A stretch of DNA of 43,113 nucleotides from Clostridiales bacterium (GTDB lineage Bacteria; Bacillota; Clostridia; Lachnospirales; JAQSXR01). The translations under genes were made by a program, and so were the position numbers. The stretch is taken from positions 1 to 43,113 of the forward strand of contig JAQSXR010000025.1 in assembly GCA_029256575.1 (NCBI GenBank). The letters are read 5' to 3'. Numbering within the stretch: position 1 is the stretch's first letter; each line of letters begins with the position of its first letter. This document shows, piece after piece, positions 20,219-31,710 of the stretch. A model generated the notes under the pieces. The model ran no database searches. It was not told the origin of the DNA and worked only from the letters and a program-made list of their open reading frames with translations.

Positions 20219-22278
20219 ATGAACTGTAAACATTGTAATATGCCAATTAAAGAAGAAGAGCATTTTTGTTCCAACTGTGAGAAATCAACGGAGGTACTAG
20301 ATGCCACAAGGAAATATCAAACTAATTTTAAGTTGAAAAGGGTTGCTGTCTTAGTTGGGCTTGCAGTAGTCATAGTAATAGGAGTGATTTCCACAGTAAA
20401 AGTACGAAGTGGTATTAATAAAAGCAGTATAGAGATTCAGCTATCCCTAGGGGAAAAATATTTAGAGGAACTCGAATGTGATAAGGCAATCTTTGTCTTT
20501 AACGAAGCGATTCAAATGAAACCAAGAAATGTAAGGGCATATCTGGGACTAGCGCAAGCTTATGAGGGTATTGGAGAACTAGAAAATGCTACTGATGTGG
20601 TTGAAAAAGGGGTACAAAGTCTTGCTAAAGATATGAAGAAGCAAGAACTAGAAGGTGTAGCTAGCCTATATTTAAAGCTAATCGGATTATATGAAAAATT
20701 AGGAGTGCATGATAAATCAGCACAGGCCGTAAAAGAAGGCTATGAATTAACAAAGAATTCTGAGTTAAGAAGACTCAACAACAGATACTTTCCGACAGTT
20801 GACATATCCTTAGCACCAGGAGAATACGATAAGAAACAGCAAATTTCTCTTACGACTAAAGGTGCGAAAATATACTATACAACCGATGGAAGCGAACCAA
20901 ATAAGTATTCAAAGATATATACAGAAGAAATAACGATTCTAGCAGATACTTTATTAAAAGGGGTAGTTGAAAACGAATATGGTTTATTGGGAGATATCTC
21001 AACCTGGGAATATCAAATAAAGTTCGAAGACTCTGTAATCAAATGGAAAGATGAAGCCCTAGAACTTTATGTAAAAGAATTTCTGGGAAAATCAATAGAT
21101 GAACCAGTGTATGTCAGCGAAGTTAGTGGACTTGGAGAGGTTATAATAAGTGGAACAAGGATGGTAGAAGAATTTTTTAATTTAGGTGGAGAAATAAGGA
21201 CAACAGGAGAAATCAAATCGTTACAAGACTTGGTTCATTTCAAATCGTTAACAAGCCTATGCGTTGAATATAATAATGTGAGCGACTTGAGTTCGTTATC
21301 CGAATTAAAGTACTTGAATGAATTATTTCTCGATAACAATAATATAAGCGACTTAAGTCCATTATCTGGATTAAACAACTTAACTTATGTTTATCTCAAT
21401 AACAATAACATAAGTGACTTAAGCCCATTATCAAAATTAACTAATTTGACTACTTTAGAGCTTCATAACAATAATATAAGTGATTTAAGTCCGTTGTCTG
21501 AATTAGTGAATTTGGATGGATTAGGGATAGAGAACTCTAATATAAGTGACGTAAGTCCGTTGTCTAAATTAGTGAAAATGACGGAGTTGCATCTAAATAA
21601 TAATAAGATAAGTGACCTAAGCCCGCTTTCTGAATTAGTAAACTTGAATTATATATATCTCAGTAACAATAACATTAGCGACCTAGGTCCATTATCCAAA
21701 TTAGAAAACTTGTATATGTTAGTAATCGATAATAATACAATAAGTGATCTAACTCCATTATCCGAATTAGAAAACACCTAAGACCGTTGTCTGGTTTAGG
21801 GAACTTGTATGATATATATCTCAGTTACAATAACATTAGTGACTTAAGTCCACTGTCCGAATTAGTGAACTTGAATAGATTGAGGCTTGGAAATAATAAC
21901 ATAAGTGACTTAAGCCCGTTATCAGGATTAAGAAACTTGAGATACCTAGATCTTGATAGCAATAAAATAAGTGACCTAAGACCTTTGTCTAAATTGAAGA
22001 TCGTAAATAAGCTTGACCTCTATAACAATAACATAAGTGACCTAAGTCCACTGTCTGGATTTATGAGCTTGACTTATTTAGACCTATTTAGGAATAACAT
22101 AAGTGACCTAAGCCCGTTATCTGATTTATGGAGCTTAACTGAGTTACATCTTGGGTACAACAACATAAGTGACCTAAGCCCTCTATCAGAACTAAATGAA
22201 TTGACATGTTTAAGTCTATGGGACAATCCTATTACAGATTGGACCCCGGTTGAATATATTGACACGGTTAATAAATAA
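20219..22278 (+). pseudogene. Leucine-rich-repeat membrane protein, frameshifted
   Basis: The first frame runs 20219-21781 (520 residues) and the second 21787-22278 (163 residues, TTG only). The N-terminus is a zinc-ribbon (CKHCNMPIKEEEHFCSNC), then a membrane helix near residues 39-58, TPR-like helices (70-175), and a chitobiase-type C-terminal (CHB_HEX_C) module near 195-265 (KIYYTTDGSEPNKYS). Fifteen internalin-like 22-residue repeats (NNISDLSPLSEL) follow. At 21755-21789 two equivalent repeat positions are 29 bases apart instead of 66, which breaks the frame. A truncated but still plausible product could be made. An AGGGG site precedes the ATG. Confidence 0.75.
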
Positions 22279-22356: not shown

Positions 22357-22396
22357 TTTATTTATGAAAAAGTGTATGATTTAATTGAGGTGTAGA

Positions 22397-23533
22397 ATGA
22401 ATTATAAAGTAAAAACAAAAGATGGATTAGCAAAACGATCCGAAGTTACAACGGTACATGGAACGATTCAAACACCTGTATTTATGAATGTTGGTACAGT
22501 AGCAGCTATAAAGGGTGCAGTATCTACGGATGATTTAAAAGAGATTAATTGCCAAGTTGAACTATCAAATACCTACCATCTGCATGTAAGAACAGGTGAT
22601 AAAGTAATTAAACAACTGGGTGGACTTCATAAATTTATGGTTTGGGATAGACCAATACTAACAGACTCTGGTGGTTTCCAAGTATTCTCGCTATCAGGAC
22701 TAAGAAAAATTAAAGAAGAAGGCGTGTATTTTTCTTCTCATATAGACGGAAGTAAGATATTTATGGGCCCAGAAGAAAGTATGCAAATACAATCAAATCT
22801 GGCATCGACAATAGCAATGGCATTTGATGAATGTCCACCATACCCTGCGACGAGAGAATATATGCAGGCGTCTGTAGACAGGACAACCCGTTGGTTAATA
22901 AGATGCAAAGACGAGATGAATAGACTAAACTCACTTGACGATACTATCAATAAAGAACAATTACTCTTTGGTATTAATCAAGGTGGAACTTACAATGATA
23001 TAAGGATTGAACATGCAAAGACAATATCAGATTTAGATTTAGATGGATATGCAGTAGGAGGACTTGCTGTAGGTGAGTCACATTCTGAGATGTATCGAAT
23101 ACTTGACGAGGTAGTTCCTCATTTACCAGAAAATAAACCTACTTATCTAATGGGAGTAGGTACGCCGGAGAATATTCTTGAATCAGTAGATAGAGGAGTA
23201 GACTTCTTTGACTGCGTATATCCGTCACGAAATGGTAGACATGGACATGTTTATACAAACCACGGGAAGATGAATTTGTTTAATGCCAAATATTTACTTG
23301 ATAGTAGACCGATTGAAGAAGGGTGTAACTGTCCAGCTTGTAGGAGCTATTCGAGAGCATATATTAGACATTTGTTAAAGGCGAAAGAAATGCTTGGAAT
23401 GAGATTATGTGTACTTCATAATTTGTATTTTTACAATACAATGATGCAAGAGATTAGAGATGCAATTGATACGCATAATTATAAAGAATATAAAAAGAAT
23501 AAAATTGAAGGTTTTACACAAAACAACAACTAG
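22397..23533 (+). CDS. tgt: tRNA-guanine transglycosylase
   Basis: This 378-residue enzyme exchanges guanine 34 of certain tRNAs for preQ1 (or queuine) in queuosine synthesis. Signatures are SNTYHLHVRTG, LTDSGGFQVFSLSGLRKI with the active-site aspartate, GGLAVGES, and YLMGVGTPENILESVDRGVDFFDCVYPSRNGRHG. The zinc site is CNCPACRSYSRAYIRHL. I chose ATG 22397 over the upstream TTG 22385 because GAGGTG ends four bases before it. yajC follows 72 bases later, a usual arrangement. queH lies elsewhere in this window and belongs to the same pathway. Confidence 0.96.
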   Translation: MNYKVKTKDGLAKRSEVTTVHGTIQTPVFMNVGTVAAIKGAVSTDDLKEINCQVELSNTYHLHVRTGDKVIKQLGGLHKFMVWDRPILTDSGGFQVFSLSGLRKIKEEGVYFSSHIDGSKIFMGPEESMQIQSNLASTIAMAFDECPPYPATREYMQASVDRTTRWLIRCKDEMNRLNSLDDTINKEQLLFGINQGGTYNDIRIEHAKTISDLDLDGYAVGGLAVGESHSEMYRILDEVVPHLPENKPTYLMGVGTPENILESVDRGVDFFDCVYPSRNGRHGHVYTNHGKMNLFNAKYLLDSRPIEEGCNCPACRSYSRAYIRHLLKAKEMLGMRLCVLHNLYFYNTMMQEIRDAIDTHNYKEYKKNKIEGFTQNNN

Positions 23534-23605
23534 CTTGTAATACTTTGATATATTGAGATTCACAAATATATTTGTAAAAAATTAAAATTGTAGGAGGAAA
23601 AAAAC

Positions 23606-23926
23606 ATGGCAACATTTTTAACAGGTGAAGGTTCACAAAATTGGTATTCCCTAATATTATTATGGGGTGGTATGATTGCATTAATGTATTTCTTACTCAT
23701 CAGACCACAAAAGAAACGTCAAAAAGCAGAAGCAAATATGCGTTCAGCTATTAAGACTGGCGATTGGATACTTACTTCAGGTGGAATATATGGAGAAGTA
23801 GTAGATGTATTAAAGGAAGTATTAATTGTAGAGTTCGGTAATAACAAAGCATGTAGATTTACATTACACAAAGATGCAATTCTTTCAGTTAAAGCTCCAG
23901 ATATGACAATTAACACAATCGAATAG
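23606..23926 (+). CDS. yajC: Preprotein translocase subunit YajC
   Basis: This 106-residue single-span membrane protein is an accessory of the SecDF-YajC complex. One helix near residues 16-33 (LILLWGGMIALMYFLLIRPQKKRQK) is followed by the conserved RPQKKR charge patch and a small domain with TGDWILTSGGIYGEVVDV. GGAGG precedes the ATG. It lies next to tgt as in many bacteria; its partner secDF is 5.6 kb downstream because a transporter and PHP gene intervene. Confidence 0.94.
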   Translation: MATFLTGEGSQNWYSLILLWGGMIALMYFLLIRPQKKRQKAEANMRSAIKTGDWILTSGGIYGEVVDVLKEVLIVEFGNNKACRFTLHKDAILSVKAPDMTINTIE

Positions 23927-23976
23927 AAACAATTTTTTTGGTGATAACATCATCGAATAGGAATGATAGTTTTAAT

Positions 23977-24017
23977 AATAACGTCATAGTTAAGTACTAT
24001 GATGTTATTATTTTTTT
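23977..24017 (+). terminator. Terminator after yajC
   Basis: Thirteen-bp arms 23977-23989 and 23997-24009, with one G-T pair, are followed by ATTTTTTTG. Confidence 0.85.
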
Positions 24018-24039
24018 GAATAAATTTTTATAATAGGTA

Positions 24040-24068
24040 TTGCATAAATATACAGTATGTGATATATT
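24040..24068 (+). promoter_or_regulatory. Promoter of the amino-acid transporter
   Basis: TTGCAT (24040-24045), a 17-base spacer and TATATT (24063-24068) with a TGA extended -10 element lie just before the binding-protein gene. Confidence 0.55.
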
Positions 24069-24102
24069 TAAATAAATTATTCAAGAAAAGGGAGACGATG
24101 AT

Positions 24103-24906
24103 ATGAAAAAAATAATTACATTAATATGTATTGGCTGTATGGCATTAACAATATTAACAGGATGTGGAAAGAAAAAAGAATCTGTTTTTATAACGAATGT
24201 TGAAGAGCTAAATGGGAAAAAAATTGGTGTTCAAGAAGGTACAACTGGTGATATTTATGCAACAGATATAGAAGGCGCAGAATTATCAAGATTTAAAAAA
24301 GCGGTTGATGCTGCAATTGACCTTAAGAATGGTAAAATAGATGCTGTAATACTTGATGAACAACCAGCTAAGAAAATTGTTGAAAACAACAAAGATCTTG
24401 TGATCTTAGATGAACAATTTACGAGTGAAGATTATGCAATAGCTGTTGCGAAAGGAAATGAAGAATTACTTCAAAGTATAAATGCAACTATCGCAAGAAT
24501 GAAAGAAGAAGGTTCATTCAAAACTTTCTTAGATGCATATATTCCTGAGAGCGGTGATCCAGTTAAATTAGAAGAAAGACCAGCAACAAACTTTGCAGAT
24601 GAAATAGTTATGGGAACAAATGCTGAATTTGAACCTTTTGAATTTAGAGATGGCGATAAAATAGTTGGATTTGATATTGAAATGGCACATGAAATTTCGA
24701 ATGATTTACAAATGAATTTAAAAGTAGAAGATATGAATTTTGACAGTTTAATAAATGCTCTTTCATCTGGAAAAGTAGATATGGTTCTAGCAGGTATGAC
24801 AATAACAGATGAACGTAAAGAAAGCGTTGACTTCTCTGATTCATACTATACTTCAAATCAAGTAATAATTGTTAGAAAAACAAGTAATACTAAACCAGAG
24901 AACTAA
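24103..24906 (+). CDS. Amino-acid-binding lipoprotein with swapped halves
   Basis: This 267-residue SBP_bac_3-type binding protein has a lipoprotein signal (LTGC, Cys 21). Its mature part is in permuted order. Residues 30-147 (ELNGKKIGVQEGTTGD, KNGKIDAVILDEQPAKK, EDYAIAVAKGNEELLQSIN, MKEEGSFKTFLDAYI) match what is normally the second half of the family. After a linker at 148-165 come residues 166-258 (EIVMGTNAEFEPFEF, VGFDIEMAHEI, FDSLINALSSGKVDM, GMTITDERKESVDFSDSYY), normally the first half. All parts of both lobes seem present, so it should fold and bind a polar or other amino acid. The ligand is unknown. Confidence 0.85.
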   Translation: MKKIITLICIGCMALTILTGCGKKKESVFITNVEELNGKKIGVQEGTTGDIYATDIEGAELSRFKKAVDAAIDLKNGKIDAVILDEQPAKKIVENNKDLVILDEQFTSEDYAIAVAKGNEELLQSINATIARMKEEGSFKTFLDAYIPESGDPVKLEERPATNFADEIVMGTNAEFEPFEFRDGDKIVGFDIEMAHEISNDLQMNLKVEDMNFDSLINALSSGKVDMVLAGMTITDERKESVDFSDSYYTSNQVIIVRKTSNTKPEN

Positions 24907-24920
24907 AAAATATAATGACG

Positions 24921-24946
24921 AAAGGGCGATTATATCGCCCTTTTTC
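24921..24946 (+). terminator. Intra-operon terminator after the binding-protein gene
   Basis: Ten-bp arms 24921-24930 and 24934-24943 with a TTTTT tail lie between the binding-protein and permease genes. Partial read-through would give more binding protein than permease, a common device in ABC importers. Confidence 0.85.
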
Positions 24947-24967
24947 TAGTAAGAAGGAAGTGATAAA

Positions 24968-25663
24968 ATGTTTGATTCATTATGGAACGAAATAAACAGG
25001 AATTTAATAGCGGAAGATAGATGGCTTTATTTGTTAAAAGGACTTGGTGTTACGCTACAAATATCATTTTTTGCAATCATATTAGGTAGTATCATAGGTG
25101 TTGTAATTGCGTTTATGAAGATGTCTAATACGAAAGTTTTTGGTTGTAGAATTTTTGATAAAATTGCAAGTATATATGTAACCATTATTAGAGGAACACC
25201 ACTTGTTACACAATTGTTGATAATTTACTTTGTAATATTTGCGTCAGTAGATATTGATAAAGTAATAGTAGCAATCATAGCTTTTGGCCTAAACAGTGGA
25301 GCATATGTATCAGAGATTATCAGAGCGGGTATATTGGCTGTTGATAAGGGACAAATGGAAGCTGGAAGATCACTTGGATTTAATTATGCAAAGACAATGA
25401 TATATATTATAATGCCTCAAGCAATTAAGAATATAATTCCAACGCTTGCAAATGAATTCATAGTATTAATAAAAGAGACAGCAATCGTAGGTTATATTGC
25501 ACTTGAAGATTTGACTAAGGTAGGAGATGTTATTAGAAGTAGAACATATTCTGCATTAGTACCACTTGTTACAGTAGCAATCGTATACTTACTAGTTACT
25601 GGGCTACTTGCAAAGATTTTTGCATTAATAGAAAGGAGGTTGCGTATAGGTGATACACGTTAA
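24968..25663 (+). CDS. Amino-acid ABC transporter permease, HisM/GlnP type
   Basis: This 231-residue permease has about five membrane segments. The opening [24 protein letters not shown] is typical of polar amino-acid permeases, [14 protein letters not shown] is conserved, and the ATPase-docking EAA loop is [26 protein letters not shown] near residues 137-162. It overlaps the ATPase gene by 14 bases. The substrate is set by the binding protein encoded upstream. Confidence 0.93.
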
Positions 25664-26372
25664 TAATCTCAAAAAAGAATTTCCAAACCTAATAGCCGTA
25701 AATGATGTATCCATCACCATTAACAAAGGTGATAAAGTAGTAATAGTCGGACCTTCCGGCTCGGGAAAAAGTACTTTTCTACGCTGCCTTAATTTATTAG
25801 AAGCACCAACAAGCGGTGAAATTAAATTTGAAGGTCAAGTCATAACAGACCCAAAGACAAATATAAATGCGGTAAGACTTAAGATGGGTATGGTATTTCA
25901 ACAATTTAATCTATTCCCTCATCTAACAGTAAGAAAAAATATTACATTAGTGCCTGTGAAATTAAAGCTTCAGACACAAAAAGAGGCGGATGAGACTGCA
26001 GATAAACTTCTTAAAAGAGTTGGATTATTTGAAAAGGCAGATTCTTACCCAGGACAATTATCGGGTGGACAAAAACAAAGAATAGCAATTGTTAGAGCAT
26101 TAGCTACTAACCCGGACGTAATGCTATTTGATGAGCCAACTTCAGCCCTTGATCCAGAAATGGTAGGAGAAGTTCTAAATGTAATGAAGGAATTAGCAGC
26201 AGACGGAATGACTATGGTTGTTGTTACACATGAAATGGGTTTTGCAAGAGAAGTAGGAACACGAGTATTGTTTATGGATGAAGGTAAAATCATAGAAGAC
26301 GCACCTCCAGAAGAATTCTTCGCGAATCCAAAGAGCCCGAGACTAAAAGATTTTTTATCAAAAGTACTATAA
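25650..26372 (+). CDS. Amino-acid ABC transporter ATPase, GlnQ-like
   Basis: This 240-residue ATPase carries Walker [10 protein letters not shown], the signature [15 protein letters not shown], Walker [15 protein letters not shown] and the H-loop [11 protein letters not shown], the full set of the GlnQ/HisP group. The start is GTG 25650, supported by GGAGGT at 25635-25640 nine bases upstream, inside the permease gene. The gene ends eight bases before a palindromic repeat element. Confidence 0.94.
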
Positions 26373-26380
26373 TAAATTGA

Positions 26381-26492
26381 GTGATACAATGGGGACGGTT
26401 CTTTTTGTATCACTTTGATACAGAGGGGACGGTCCATGGACCGTCCCCATTGTATTACTTTGATACAAAAAGAACCGTCCCCATTGTATCAC
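26381..26492. repeat. Palindromic GGGGACGG element between convergent genes
   Basis: Outer arms 26381-26412 and 26461-26492 are perfect 32-bp reverse complements. The centre, 26424-26447, is a 24-base perfect palindrome built from GGGGACGG and its complement. The family is the same as at 13831-14053. The right end contains the stop codon of the minus-strand PHP gene, and the hairpin may also stop transcription in both directions. Confidence 0.85.
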
Positions 26493-27322
26493 GGTCTTAA
26501 TGTTTCCAATAACTCGGAAGATACTCTAAGATTACCTTTTCCGGTACCTAGTTCAATGCTTGATTTATTTTTTCCGTGGTAATCAGATCCACCAGTCATT
26601 TTTAAGTCATATATTCTTGCTAATCTTCTTGAATCACTTTCCTCTACTTCGGAATTAAGACCATAGAGAGCTTCAATTCCTTCAAGTCCAATTCCCTTTA
26701 AATAGGCTACCAGTTCATTAAGTTGTTCAGAATTCAAACCGTATATCATAGGATGTGCAAGTACGGATACACCACCAGCTAACTTAATCAAATCAATTGC
26801 AAGTTTTGGGGTAACCTTTGCTCTTGGAATATATGCGGGACAGCCCTTACCGATTATAGTATCAAATACTTCGTTATTTGTCTTGGCATAACCTTTGTCT
26901 ATTAAAACACGTGCAAAATGTGCACGGGTTACTATTGTATCACTCGCATGCTGTATTAATTCTTGAAAAGTAATTTCATAGCCCAGTTCGTTTAATTTCT
27001 CAATCATTTTATAATTTCTATTTTCTCTAGAGTCCTGGATATCGATAAGTTGGTGTAAGAATTCTTTGTTTGTATGGTCTACAAAGAGTCCAAGGATATG
27101 GACATCTGTATTATAATAATCAGTTGAGAACTCAATGCCACTAATAACCTCAACACCAATTCTATTACCCTCTTCAATTGCTGCCGCAACTCCTGAGACG
27201 GTATCGTGATCTGTTAGTGCAAAGCTCGATAAACCGACCTTTTTTGCCAATTGTACCACTTCTACAGGTGATAAGGTACCATCAGATGCTGTTGAATGGA
27301 CATGTAAATCTACAAATCCCAT
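26489..27322 (-). CDS. PHP-domain phosphoesterase
   Basis: This 277-residue protein has the PHP metal-site motifs in order: HVHSTASDGTLSP, TDHDTVSG, GIEFSTDY, RAHFARVL, LAHPMIYG and GGSDYHGKNK. This group includes the YciV/RNase AM-type 5'-exonucleases and 3',5'-nucleoside bisphosphate phosphatases. The exact substrate cannot be told. AGGAGTG precedes the ATG. The TGA stop lies inside a repeat element, so the last residues (TLRP) may be a repeat-insertion-altered end. Confidence 0.88.
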   Translation of the reverse strand: MGFVDLHVHSTASDGTLSPVEVVQLAKKVGLSSFALTDHDTVSGVAAAIEEGNRIGVEVISGIEFSTDYYNTDVHILGLFVDHTNKEFLHQLIDIQDSRENRNYKMIEKLNELGYEITFQELIQHASDTIVTRAHFARVLIDKGYAKTNNEVFDTIIGKGCPAYIPRAKVTPKLAIDLIKLAGGVSVLAHPMIYGLNSEQLNELVAYLKGIGLEGIEALYGLNSEVEESDSRRLARIYDLKMTGGSDYHGKNKSSIELGTGKGNLRVSSELLETLRP

Positions 27323-27504
27323 TTAATCACTCCTGTCATAAAATTAATTAATCATCCACTACTATATTTCAAATGCAATACCTATAGTTTATCATAATGT
27401 ACAAGTAAATTAAATATATTAATACAAACAAGGGTAAACTCCAATCTAATAAGAATGCAGTGAAGAGTTTATAACCTCATTAATATAGTAAAGGAGTGAA
27501 TAGA

Positions 27505-27879
27505 GTGAAGAATAATCCGATTGTTGTAAAAAGTAAGGGGGAGGCATTATTTAGAGGAGTTGCTATAAGTTACATAATTACCATAGCTATGTTACTAATT
27601 CTTGCATTTTTAATGTTTAAGTATGATATGACAGAGAGAAATGTAAATATAGGAATAATTGCTACATATATACTATCGAATCTTGTTCTAGGCTTTTCAG
27701 TTGGTAAGCGAATAAGAAAAAATAGCTGGTTATGGGGAGCGGTAGGCGGATTAATTTATTTCGTGATTTTAATTATTATAGGATTTATTGTAAATAGGCA
27801 GTTTATGGGTCTCGGAGAGTCAGTTACAAACATTCTTATATGTTGTGCATCAGGAATGCTAGGTGGAATGTTTAGCTAA
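27505..27879 (+). CDS. TIGR04086 family membrane protein
   Basis: This 124-residue protein has about four membrane helices: YIITIAMLLILAFLMF, IGIIATYILSNLVLGFSVG, WLWGAVGGLIYFVILIIIGFIV and NILICCASGMLGGMF. The pattern fits TIGR04086, a Clostridia family often near yajC and the SCIFF genes. Function is unknown. I chose GTG 27505 because AAGGAG (27491-27496) is eight bases before it, while the upstream GTG 27496 overlaps that site. It lies 87 bases before the SCIFF peptide gene. Confidence 0.8.
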   Translation: MKNNPIVVKSKGEALFRGVAISYIITIAMLLILAFLMFKYDMTERNVNIGIIATYILSNLVLGFSVGKRIRKNSWLWGAVGGLIYFVILIIIGFIVNRQFMGLGESVTNILICCASGMLGGMFS

Positions 27880-27922
27880 AAATGAAAAATAGAAAAAATT
27901 TCTTTTAAAACTTGAATGTACA

Positions 27923-27931
27923 TGATATAAT
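27923..27931 (+). promoter_or_regulatory. Extended -10 promoter of scfA
   Basis: TGA-TATAAT (27923-27931) lies 35 bases before the SCIFF ATG. No good -35 box is seen, which fits an extended -10 promoter. Confidence 0.5.
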
Positions 27932-27966
27932 ACATGAAGTTATGTTGTATAAAAGGAGTGATTACG

Positions 27967-28110
27967 ATGAAACACGTTAAGACTATTAATCCTGCTACAT
28001 TAAAGGATACAGTTAAAAAGGGCGGTTGTGGTGAATGCCAAACATCTTGCCAGTCAGCTTGCAAGACATCTTGCACAGTAGGAAATCAAAGCTGTGAAAA
28101 CAACAACTAA
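27967..28110 (+). CDS. scfA: SCIFF ribosomally made peptide precursor
   Basis: This 47-residue peptide is the six-cysteine-in-forty-five (SCIFF) precursor. It starts MKHVKTINPATLKDTVKKGG as a leader, and its core holds six cysteines at 21, 24, 28, 32, 36 and 43 (CGECQTSCQSACKTSCT). In the Clostridium thermocellum homologue the maturase joins Cys32 to Thr37 through a thioether; both residues are at the same positions here. The product is widespread in Clostridia and its role is unknown. AAAGGAG precedes the ATG. The maturase gene follows after 51 bases. Confidence 0.95.
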   Translation: MKHVKTINPATLKDTVKKGGCGECQTSCQSACKTSCTVGNQSCENNN

Positions 28111-28115
28111 TTTCT

Positions 28116-28139
28116 AGGCAGCGGCTAATGTCGCTGCTT
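28116..28139 (+). terminator. Hairpin between scfA and scfB
   Basis: A ten-pair stem with a TAAT loop (28116-28125 against 28130-28139, two G-T pairs) has no real U tract. It may act as an attenuator or protect the 3' end of scfA mRNA, so that peptide is made in excess of maturase. Confidence 0.6.
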
Positions 28140-28161
28140 ATTAAATGTAAAAGGAGATTTT

Positions 28162-29517
28162 ATGATACACCAATATAAAAACAATGGTCTAAATATAGTT
28201 ATAGATGTAAACAGTGGGGCAATACATGTTGTAGATGATATTGTATATGATGTAATTGAAATCTATGAAGAAAATGATAGAGACACAATTATTTCAAAGC
28301 TTGAGAATAAATATGTTAATGAAGAAATAATAGAAGTATTAGATGAGATTCAAGAGTTAATCGATGCGAAGCAACTATTTACAGCGGATGAGTATGAACC
28401 ACTTATTAAAGCTTTTAACCAAAGACAGCCAGTTGTCAAAGCGTTGTGTCTTCATATAGCGCATGATTGTAATTTAGGTTGTATGTATTGTTTTGCTGAA
28501 GAGGGTGAATACCATGGACGACGTGCATTGATGTCTTTGGAAGTTGGAATGAAAGCCATTGATTTTGTAATTAAGAATTCTGGATCGAGAAAGAACATTG
28601 AAATAGATTTCTTTGGCGGTGAACCGTTAATGAATTTTGATGTTGTTAAGGAAATTGTAAGATATGGAAGAGAGCAAGAGAAGATACATAATAAGTTATT
28701 TCGATTTACGATTACTACAAACGGAGTACTTCTAGACGATGAAATAAAAGATTTTATTAATAAAGAAATGAACAACGTTGTGTTAAGTATTGATGGTAGA
28801 AAAGAAGTCAATGATAAAATGAGACCTACTCGAAATAAAAAAGGTAGCTATGATTTAATTATAGATAAATTTATTGATCTAGCTGAAAGTAGAAATCAAG
28901 ATAAGTACTATGTAAGAGGAACGTTTACACATCATAATACCGATTTTTCTGAAGATGTTCTTCATCTTGCAGAGCTTGGATTTAAGCAAATATCAGTTGA
29001 ACCAGTAGTAGCTGAAGATAATGAAGATTATGCTCTGAAAATAAGTGATTTACCAAAATTATATGAAGAATATGATAAATTAGCATTAGAAATGATTAAA
29101 AGACATGGTACGGAAAATGATTTTAATTTCTTCCATTATATGGTTGATTTAAAGCAAGGACCGTGTGTTTATAAGAGATTATCAGGCTGCGGTTCAGGGA
29201 CTGAATATTTAGCAGTTACGCCATGGGGAGACCTTTACCCGTGTCACCAATTTGTTGGAATTGATGAGTATTTAATGGGTAATGTTGACGATGGTATTAC
29301 GCGTGATGACATCAAGGAAGAATTTATGGGTTGCAGTGTTTATACAAAAGAGAAATGTAAGAATTGTTGGGCTAAGTTCTATTGTAGTGGTGGATGTGTT
29401 GCAAATTCATATAAGTTTAAGGGTGACTTAAACGAGACTTATGATTTAGGTTGTGATTTACAAAAGAAGAGAATAGAATGCGCGATAATGATAAAGTCAT
29501 CTCTCTCGCAAATATAA
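28162..29517 (+). CDS. scfB: SCIFF radical-SAM thioether maturase
   Basis: This 451-residue radical-SAM/SPASM enzyme makes a thioether bond in the SCIFF peptide. Residues 1-90 form the peptide-recognition region of this family. The SAM cluster is CNLGCMYC (Cys 103, 107, 110), followed by FFGGEPLMNF and TTNGVLL. The C-terminal SPASM region has cysteines in GPCVYKRLSGCGSG, YPCHQF, CKNCWAKFYCSGGCV and GCDLQKKR, for auxiliary Fe-S clusters. AAAGGAG lies before the ATG. secDF follows 27 bases later, and cotranscription is likely. Confidence 0.95.
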   Translation: MIHQYKNNGLNIVIDVNSGAIHVVDDIVYDVIEIYEENDRDTIISKLENKYVNEEIIEVLDEIQELIDAKQLFTADEYEPLIKAFNQRQPVVKALCLHIAHDCNLGCMYCFAEEGEYHGRRALMSLEVGMKAIDFVIKNSGSRKNIEIDFFGGEPLMNFDVVKEIVRYGREQEKIHNKLFRFTITTNGVLLDDEIKDFINKEMNNVVLSIDGRKEVNDKMRPTRNKKGSYDLIIDKFIDLAESRNQDKYYVRGTFTHHNTDFSEDVLHLAELGFKQISVEPVVAEDNEDYALKISDLPKLYEEYDKLALEMIKRHGTENDFNFFHYMVDLKQGPCVYKRLSGCGSGTEYLAVTPWGDLYPCHQFVGIDEYLMGNVDDGITRDDIKEEFMGCSVYTKEKCKNCWAKFYCSGGCVANSYKFKGDLNETYDLGCDLQKKRIECAIMIKSSLSQI

Positions 29518-29544
29518 GAGAAAACTCAAGGAGGAATAAAGGAA

Positions 29545-31710
29545 ATGGGAAAGAACGTAATAAAAGCTATTTCAATCTTATTATTTTCTGCAGTAGTAAT
29601 TTTAGTTGCAGTAGTGGGGGTACCAATTACAAAAGATGCTACGACAAAAAATTATGGTAGTATTTCTGAAATCAAGCTAGGTCTTGATCTTGCTGGTGGC
29701 GTAAGTATTACTTATGAAGCAGTGGAGGAAGATCCGACTTCCGAACAAATGGAAGATGCACAAAATAAGATAAGAAAAAGAGCAGACAGTATCAGTACGG
29801 AAGCAGAAGTTTACCTTGAAGGTAAAAACAGATTGAATGTCGACATCCCTGGCATTAATGATGCAGAAGGTGCACTAGAACAAATTGGTAAACCTGGTGC
29901 TGTAAAATTCGTGGCAGAAGATGGAACAACGGTTATTGATGGATCTCACATTGCAAATGCGAAAGCTCAAGCAGGACAAGATCCACAAACTGGACAAGTT
30001 TCTTATTGGGTTCAGTTAACTTTAAATGATACAGGCAAGGACTTGTTTGCAAAAGGCACAAAAGAGAATCTAGGTAAATCAATAAGTATAGTATATGATG
30101 AAAAAGTTATTAGCTCACCTACAGTAGAAGTAGAGATTCCAGATGGTGTAGCAACAATAACTAATATGGCCAGCATAGAAGAAGCTCAAGAGCTTGCTTC
30201 CACAATTAGAATAGGTTCTCTTCAAGTAGAACTAAAAGAACTTCGTTCCAATATAGTAGGTGCAAAACTTGGACAAGAAGCCATTGATAGAAGCTTACTT
30301 GCAGGTATTATAGGTCTAGCTTTAATATTCCTATTTATGATAGCAGTATATAGAGTTCCAGGACTTGCTTCAGGCATTGCATTATTTGTTTATGCAGCAG
30401 GAATGATTGTTGCACTTAGTTTGTTGAAGATTACACTTACATTGCCAGGTATTGCAGGTATCATCTTATCTATTGGTATGGCGGTTGATGCGAATGTTGT
30501 AATATTCTCCAGAATTAGAGAAGAAGTAGCTGTAGGGAAAACGATTAGATCCTCTATTAAATCTGGTTTTGATAAAGCATTATCTGCAATTATTGATGGA
30601 AATGTAACAACACTTATAGCAGCAGCAGTTCTATATTTCTTAGGAACTGGACCTATTAAAGGATTTGCTCAAACCTTAGCACTTGGTATTGTTCTTTCAA
30701 TGATTACAGCTTTATTCTTTACACGATTTATATTAAATACTTTATTCAATTTAGGACTCAAGAATAAGAAGTTATATGGTTCTCAAAAAGAAATGAAACC
30801 ATTTACATTTGTTAAAACTAAGAAAATCTGGATTTCTATATCAGTAGTGATTATTGCAGTAGGATTAATATTCTTACCAATTAATAAATCTAGAACAGGT
30901 GATATATTAAACTTTGGTATCGACTTTAAGGGAGGTACTTCAACACAAATAGAATTCCCTGAAAATGTAGATGTTAATTTTGAAATGATCGATAATGAAC
31001 TTAAACCGCTTATATCTGAAATAACTGGCGATAAAGAAGCACAAGCACAACAAGTAACTGGTGAGAATCAGGTAATTATTAAAAGCAAAGAATTAACAAA
31101 AGAGCAAAGATCTACATTAACGGATAAACTTGTAGAAAAATATTCTGTAGATAAAGCTAAGATTACTAGTTCAAGTATAAGTGCTACTGTTGGTGCTGAA
31201 ATGAAGAGAATTGCAGTAGTATCAGTTCTTGTTGCTGCAGCACTTATGTTACTTTACATTGCATTTAGATTTAAAGATATTATGTTTGGTATCAGTTCAA
31301 TAACAGCATTAATACACGATTTATTAATTGTTATTGCAGTTTACTCAATATTTAGAATACCAGTAAACAATGCATTTATTGCTTGTATTCTAACAATATT
31401 AGGTTACTCAATTAACTCAACTATCGTAGTATTTGACCGTATCCGTGAAAATAAGATTGCGATAAAAGGAAATGATAGAGACCTTCTTGTAGATACGAGT
31501 ATAACTCAGACATTATCAAGATCGATATATTCTTCATTAACAACATTTGTTACAGTATTAATTCTTAATATAGTAGGTGTTGCAGCTATTAAAGAATTCA
31601 CGCTTCCATTAATGGTTGGTATTGCAGCAGGAGCTTATTCATCAATATTTATTGCAGCTCCATTATGGGATACATTAAAAGGATTACAAGCGAAAAAGAA
31701 AACAAAGTAA
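29545..31710 (+). CDS. secDF: Fused SecDF protein-export subunit
   Basis: This 721-residue membrane protein uses the proton gradient to pull secreted proteins through SecYEG. It is a fusion of SecD (residues about 1-420) and SecF (about 425-721). SecD features are LGLDLAGGVSITYE, a soluble domain, and ILSIGMAVDANVVIFSRIREE. SecF features are NFGIDFKGGTSTQIEF and TILGYSINSTIVVFDRIREN. About twelve membrane segments are expected. GGAGG precedes the ATG. It follows scfB closely, and yajC lies upstream. Confidence 0.95.
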   Translation: MGKNVIKAISILLFSAVVILVAVVGVPITKDATTKNYGSISEIKLGLDLAGGVSITYEAVEEDPTSEQMEDAQNKIRKRADSISTEAEVYLEGKNRLNVDIPGINDAEGALEQIGKPGAVKFVAEDGTTVIDGSHIANAKAQAGQDPQTGQVSYWVQLTLNDTGKDLFAKGTKENLGKSISIVYDEKVISSPTVEVEIPDGVATITNMASIEEAQELASTIRIGSLQVELKELRSNIVGAKLGQEAIDRSLLAGIIGLALIFLFMIAVYRVPGLASGIALFVYAAGMIVALSLLKITLTLPGIAGIILSIGMAVDANVVIFSRIREEVAVGKTIRSSIKSGFDKALSAIIDGNVTTLIAAAVLYFLGTGPIKGFAQTLALGIVLSMITALFFTRFILNTLFNLGLKNKKLYGSQKEMKPFTFVKTKKIWISISVVIIAVGLIFLPINKSRTGDILNFGIDFKGGTSTQIEFPENVDVNFEMIDNELKPLISEITGDKEAQAQQVTGENQVIIKSKELTKEQRSTLTDKLVEKYSVDKAKITSSSISATVGAEMKRIAVVSVLVAAALMLLYIAFRFKDIMFGISSITALIHDLLIVIAVYSIFRIPVNNAFIACILTILGYSINSTIVVFDRIRENKIAIKGNDRDLLVDTSITQTLSRSIYSSLTTFVTVLILNIVGVAAIKEFTLPLMVGIAAGAYSSIFIAAPLWDTLKGLQAKKKTK

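Follow-up and report, generated by a model that had tools for sequence, protein, structure and literature searches.

How can an amino-acid-binding protein work when the two halves of its domain are encoded in the wrong order? The question is raised by the gene P0001, located in the window (the whole stretch of 43,113 nucleotides that was analysed). The initial annotation described its product as having what is normally the C-terminal half of an SBP_bac_3 domain first and the N-terminal half second, with a linker at residues 148-165 between them.

Swapped halves and the position of the cut

The gene and its parts are as follows.

24103..24906, + strand: P0001, permuted SBP_bac_3 substrate-binding lipoprotein gene, an ORF of 267 aa
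24103..24162, + strand: lipoprotein signal peptide, recognized from the sequence, ending in LTG and followed by Cys21 (lipobox LTGC)
24190..24543, + strand: canonical C-terminal half (lobe 2, then back to lobe 1), residues 30-147, with Q44, T48, and D85
24544..24597, + strand: residues 148-165, the linker that now connects the old C terminus to the old N terminus
24598..24888, + strand: canonical N-terminal half (lobe 1, first crossing, first strand of lobe 2), residues 166-262, with E175, F176, E180, F213, and R238

The Pfam SBP_bac_3 profile (PF00497) scores 128.6 bits on P0001 (E = 1.7e-37; gathering cut-off, 26.4) and matches it in two stretches, the best of which, residues 168-262, covers profile positions 1-95, and separate hidden Markov models (HMMs) of the N-half and the C-half both match the protein. 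A sequence alignment with the T. maritima arginine-binding protein (TmArgBP; 6svf; E = 2.5e-49) pairs P0001 residues 168-266 with chain residues 12-111 and residues 33-147 with chain residues 113-227, so that the order of the halves is reversed. Consistent with this, the tandem SBD1-SBD2 domains of GlnPQ (6h30) align without a break to residues 30-261, running through the C-half of SBD1, the linker, and the N-half of SBD2. In place of the canonical N-then-C order, the C-half (residues 30-147) stands ahead of the N-half (residues 166-262), and P0001 is therefore classed as a permuted SBP_bac_3 variant. The order and the linker given in the initial annotation are thus borne out. The possibility, also raised there, of a second binding-protein half next to the gene was addressed by searching the entire 43-kb window with the half-HMMs, which found none. 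P0001 is a circularly permuted amino-acid-binding lipoprotein of type II, neither a chimera nor a broken gene.

The cut, on the other hand, is not at the first hinge crossing, where it had originally been placed. Domain 1 of TmArgBP consists of residues 20-114 and 207-233 (PMC7589609), and the new termini of P0001 map to TmArgBP positions 129/131, i.e., within domain 2 (lobe 2), about 15 residues beyond the first crossing. They lie between the first strand of lobe 2 (QVIIVRK) and the helix preceding GKKIGVQ. The old C and N termini are both in lobe 1 and are joined by the 18-residue linker.

Relatives of P0001 were typed with the separate N-half and C-half HMMs in sequence drawn from a search of about 1,200 genomes and from a contig scan; as they were gathered with the window protein as the query, their sampling is biased. 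Single genes with the same C-N order and the cut before GKKIGVQ (type A) number 66 including P0001. Together with the E-values, the 65 others, each verified by the half-HMMs, exclude chance as the source of the swapped order. A second permutation (type B) was found in 34 genes, in SBP-permease-ATPase operons (L030, L039, L095, L101, L160, L162, L164-L186 in part, and L194-L198). It has the layout C(about 65-119)-N-C(1 to about 68), the cut following the DxxPA helix at another place in lobe 2. There are also 11 permuted arrays of 2, 3, or 5 C-N units, mostly seen joined to a permease; these include the five-unit array L204 (G277:C150), with a frame of 1527 aa, as well as L008, L058, L200-L203, L205, and L206. 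In some units of arrays L008, L025, L058, and L090, the aspartate of the ligand clamp (see below) is gone, and those units may not bind amino acids. The matches listed from a plasmid collection are two-piece matches only, a pattern of canonical genes.

The unusual order inside the protein and a genome in 64 contigs might suggest gene wreckage or a misassembly, that is, an SBP gene that was rearranged and no longer functions, or an error confined to one assembly. This scarcely credible explanation is refuted by recurrence across genomes, with 65 other single C-N genes and 34 second-cut genes elsewhere; moreover, the reading frames are intact, signal peptides are present, the clamp residues do not vary, and the operon is conserved.

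Operon, predicted fold, and ligand pocket

The gene is embedded in an importer operon with the following elements.

23974..24012, + strand: terminator-like hairpin between yajC and the transporter operon (17-pair stem and T tail; 0.1 expected in shuffles)
24041..24054, + strand: ARG-box-like candidate operator, TGCATAAATATACA
24968..25663, + strand: GlnP-type amino-acid ABC permease (PF00528; the nearest NCBIfam families are cystine permease and GlnP; TIGR01726 above its cut-off)
25650..26372, + strand: GlnQ-type ABC ATPase (PF00005; best NCBIfam match GlnQ, E = 5.9e-95, under the equivalog cut-off)

The permease gene starts 61 bp 3' of P0001 and overlaps the ATPase gene. P0001 thus has the lipobox LTGC and shares an operon with its cognate permease and ATPase genes, as is found in binding subunits of ABC importers. 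Where the stretch is long enough, the permuted genes, with few exceptions, are likewise followed by permease and then ATPase genes or are fused to the permease. SBP folds are also reused in sensors, and P0001, which has such a fold, might act as a sensor or an orphan receptor and not serve the adjacent importer as its binding subunit; its position directly ahead of the permease gene and the 19 permuted single-unit relatives that are fused to a permease make this highly improbable.

The ARG-box-like site lies 48 bp upstream of the P0001 start codon and is the only match in the 43 kb to TGNATWWWWATNCA, which we take to be the ARG-box consensus. A lone box in the window is weak by itself, since 23% of the sequences obtained by shuffling the entire window contain at least one match. 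The site overlaps TTGCAT (24040-24045), 17 bp ahead of TATATT (24063-24068); these two elements were paired by eye, and the pair is absent from the promoter scan. ARG-like boxes are found upstream of 11 of the 66 type A genes (0.15 expected), 10 of 85 genes for canonical relatives (0.12 expected), and 5 of the 34 type B genes (0.08 expected); none is seen upstream of the 26 tandem-domain genes. The source genome encodes an ArgR homologue. These boxes and the regulator suggest that the transporter operon may be under arginine-responsive control and that the ligand may be a basic amino acid. An Rfam scan of the window found no riboswitch or other RNA, so no hint of the ligand comes from that side.

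The AlphaFold2 model of P0001, built with no templates, shows one bilobed protein (mean pLDDT, 94.1; pTM, 0.87); since most of the underlying alignment comes from canonical relatives whose halves were aligned separately, the model does not provide evidence independent of the homology. Sequential structure alignment can match only pieces of a permuted chain. By this method, model residues 5-129 superpose on TmArgBP residues 123-247 (Z = 13.1; 2.0 Å; 38% identity), residues 6-88 on the isolated domain 2 of TmArgBP, and residues 144-234 on its isolated domain 1. The top Foldseek match is 6h30. The view of the initial annotation that the swapped-order protein is one receptor agrees with this prediction of a single, confidently modeled bilobed protein, as opposed to two separate incomplete domains. 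Misplacement of pieces by the aligner left a model of the type B protein L030 with much lower scores (pLDDT, 73.9; pTM, 0.66), and this model was not relied on.

Of the ligand contacts described for TmArgBP (PMC4022495), P0001 keeps R101 (R238), D183 (D85), F38 (F176), F76 (F213), Q142 (Q44), and E42 (E180), and D37 corresponds to E175. The clamp arginine and aspartate, which hold the alpha-carboxylate and the alpha-amino group of the ligand, are thus present as R238 and D85, and in the first set of relatives neither residue varies among the 58 type A proteins or the 9 type B proteins. TmArgBP position 37, which helps to read the guanidinium, varies within the family of P0001, leaving its ligand uncertain. 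The NCBIfam equivalog models for GlnH, ArtI, ArtJ, HisJ, and ArgT all score under their cut-offs, which is expected for a permuted chain and is not strong evidence against a function with arginine or other basic amino acids. The ligand is probably arginine (most likely) or another basic amino acid, with which both the pocket residues and the ARG-like box are consistent.

A C-N chain might not close upon itself and might instead form domain-swapped dimers or arrays, the C-half of one chain pairing with the N-half of another. TmArgBP is indeed a domain-swapped dimer, in which the C-terminal helix is exchanged (PMC4022495), and in the permuted tandem arrays, the pairing of units is ambiguous. However, the monomer is predicted to close with high confidence, single C-N genes are common, and the linker connects old termini that are in the same lobe, so that we regard swapping as improbable. 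Our preferred reading, to which we assign a probability of about 0.88, is that P0001 is the complete Venus-flytrap binding protein of an amino-acid ABC importer with a chain circularly permuted within lobe 2. It brings together the swapped order, the confident two-lobed model, the conserved pocket, the operon, and the recurrence across many genomes. Because both lobes and the cleft would re-form, P0001 should bind a polar and probably basic amino acid, most likely arginine, and would pass it on to the permease and ATPase whose genes follow immediately. That the permuted receptor is functional, as was initially proposed, seems probable, in view of the order, the operon, the predicted fold, and the invariant clamp.

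One origin or several

The order was initially suggested to be a lineage trait. It is indeed widespread; yet its bearers are mixed with canonical relatives and with those of the second permutation, and one origin is rejected. In an IQ-TREE tree of the rearranged N and C halves (70 rows), the relative with the highest identity to P0001 is a canonical protein (L163; 61%). Parsimony requires at least 6 state changes for type A, 3 of them forced by well-supported branches, these counts being blind to gain versus loss. A single clade is rejected in this tree for type A (AU test, P = 0.0056) and for types A and B together (P = 0.0014) but not for type B (P = 0.127). In the tree of the partner permease and ATPase, which are not permuted, one clade has P = 0.016 for A and P = 0.004 for A and B. 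A single origin of the type A order is thus rejected by the binding-protein tree and, independently, by the partner-subunit tree. The family appears to have been re-cut repeatedly, at two places, in clostridia and in other bacteria.

The trees bear in a different way on the idea of one ancient permutation followed by later reversions to the canonical order, as opposed to several independent permutations. Canonical proteins L017-L020 nest inside type A (support, 98/94), which makes reversion possible; the relative with the highest identity to P0001 is canonical, and the parsimony counts say nothing of direction. Against this, type A proteins from metagenome-assembled genomes of Coriobacteriia (L001-L009) are far away in the wider FastTree tree, L111/L114 and L056 are in other distant parts of it, and every reversion would also cost one duplication and two trimmings. 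We consider a single ancient event unlikely, although far from negligible.

For the repeated permutations, duplication followed by trimming is the likely evolutionary route. A tandem array would form in frame; a new start and a new stop would then remove the first N-half and the last C-half to give type A, trimming within lobe 2 instead would give type B, and the permuted tandem arrays would be other end points of the same route. In one genome, three canonical units in tandem (N-C-N-C-N-C) are encoded as a fusion with a permease, and their repeats are 85-88% identical in DNA. As this triple array groups with canonical relatives, in the same part of the tree as the permuted ones, it illustrates the duplication step and is not a direct ancestor. 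The permuted product would fold because both old termini are close to each other in lobe 1. With the lipid-bearing N terminus now exiting lobe 2, the membrane tether would have shifted from lobe 1 to lobe 2; from the anatomy we infer that the lipid anchor and, in the fused forms, the permease attachment leave from lobe 2. Taken together, these points allow a tentative proposal, which we put at somewhat less than even odds: permutation would be frequent and repeated in this one family, types A and B having arisen several times when units were duplicated in tandem and in frame and then trimmed, with some possible returns to the canonical order. That every observed cut falls within lobe 2 would then reflect a change in the docking of the receptor, brought about when the membrane tether or the permease attachment passes from lobe 1 to lobe 2.

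Known systems and the rest of the window

Natural circular permutation is usually regarded as rare and ancient. P0001 shares both halves, both lobes, the clamp residues, and an ABC importer partner with TmArgBP (4PSH, 6SVF) and with E. coli GlnH, both canonical SBP_bac_3 proteins, but differs from them in its swapped halves, its new termini in lobe 2, and the new linker between the old termini. GlnPQ SBD1-SBD2 of L. lactis (6H30) has the same succession of C-half, linker, and N-half, albeit across two domains, both of which are canonical, with no permutation. T. pallidum MglB-2 (Tp0684), a "Type Ic" protein with relatives in Gram-positive bacteria, is likewise tethered and is another natural case of circular permutation in an ABC binding protein. 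However, it is a sugar binder with the type I fold, from another superfamily, in which the N lobe contains the permuted strands and the chain has gained a fourth crossing of the hinge (PMC4990184). The sequence and fold matches of P0001 that were examined are of type II and the amino-acid type.

Within the type II fold, OpuAC, ProX, molybdate-binding protein, and CysB form a circular permutation family in CPSARST, where OpuAC is reported to be naturally permuted with respect to ProX (PMC2395249). A sequential alignment of OpuAC (2b4l) with the P0001 model covers 199 residues (Z = 12.2; 14% identity), and no OpuAC-type family is among the Pfam and NCBIfam matches of P0001. The OpuAC/ProX family binds quaternary amines and has <24% identity within it, so that its permutation separates remote families; that of P0001 occurs within one close family. 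A search of openly licensed PMC papers, where absence is weak evidence, found no report that describes a permuted amino-acid SBP_bac_3 protein, two cut sites, or arrays of permuted units. As profile searches match permuted chains piecewise and under equivalog cut-offs, such proteins are easily mislabelled. With close relatives (the nearest at 61%) that are canonical, permuted in two ways, fused, or in tandem and that have the same partner proteins, the family offers a natural test series, which could show how permutation happens, whether it passes via duplicated arrays, and how a tether moved from lobe 1 to lobe 2 affects transport.

In the region 22385-31710, the transporter operon, together with a PHP-type and a DUF3792 gene, is flanked by tgt-yajC on one side and by a radical SAM gene, which secDF follows, on the other. 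The radical SAM protein presumably resembles the maturase of the six-cysteine peptide SCIFF. A large BspA-type leucine-rich-repeat protein of 700 aa is encoded at 809-2911. Another leucine-rich-repeat gene, with NNISDLSPLSEL repeats, spans 20219-22278 and is broken into an ORF of 520 aa and one of 163 aa, which differ in frame, a stop falling at about 21779; it is either a frameshifted gene or the result of a sequencing error.
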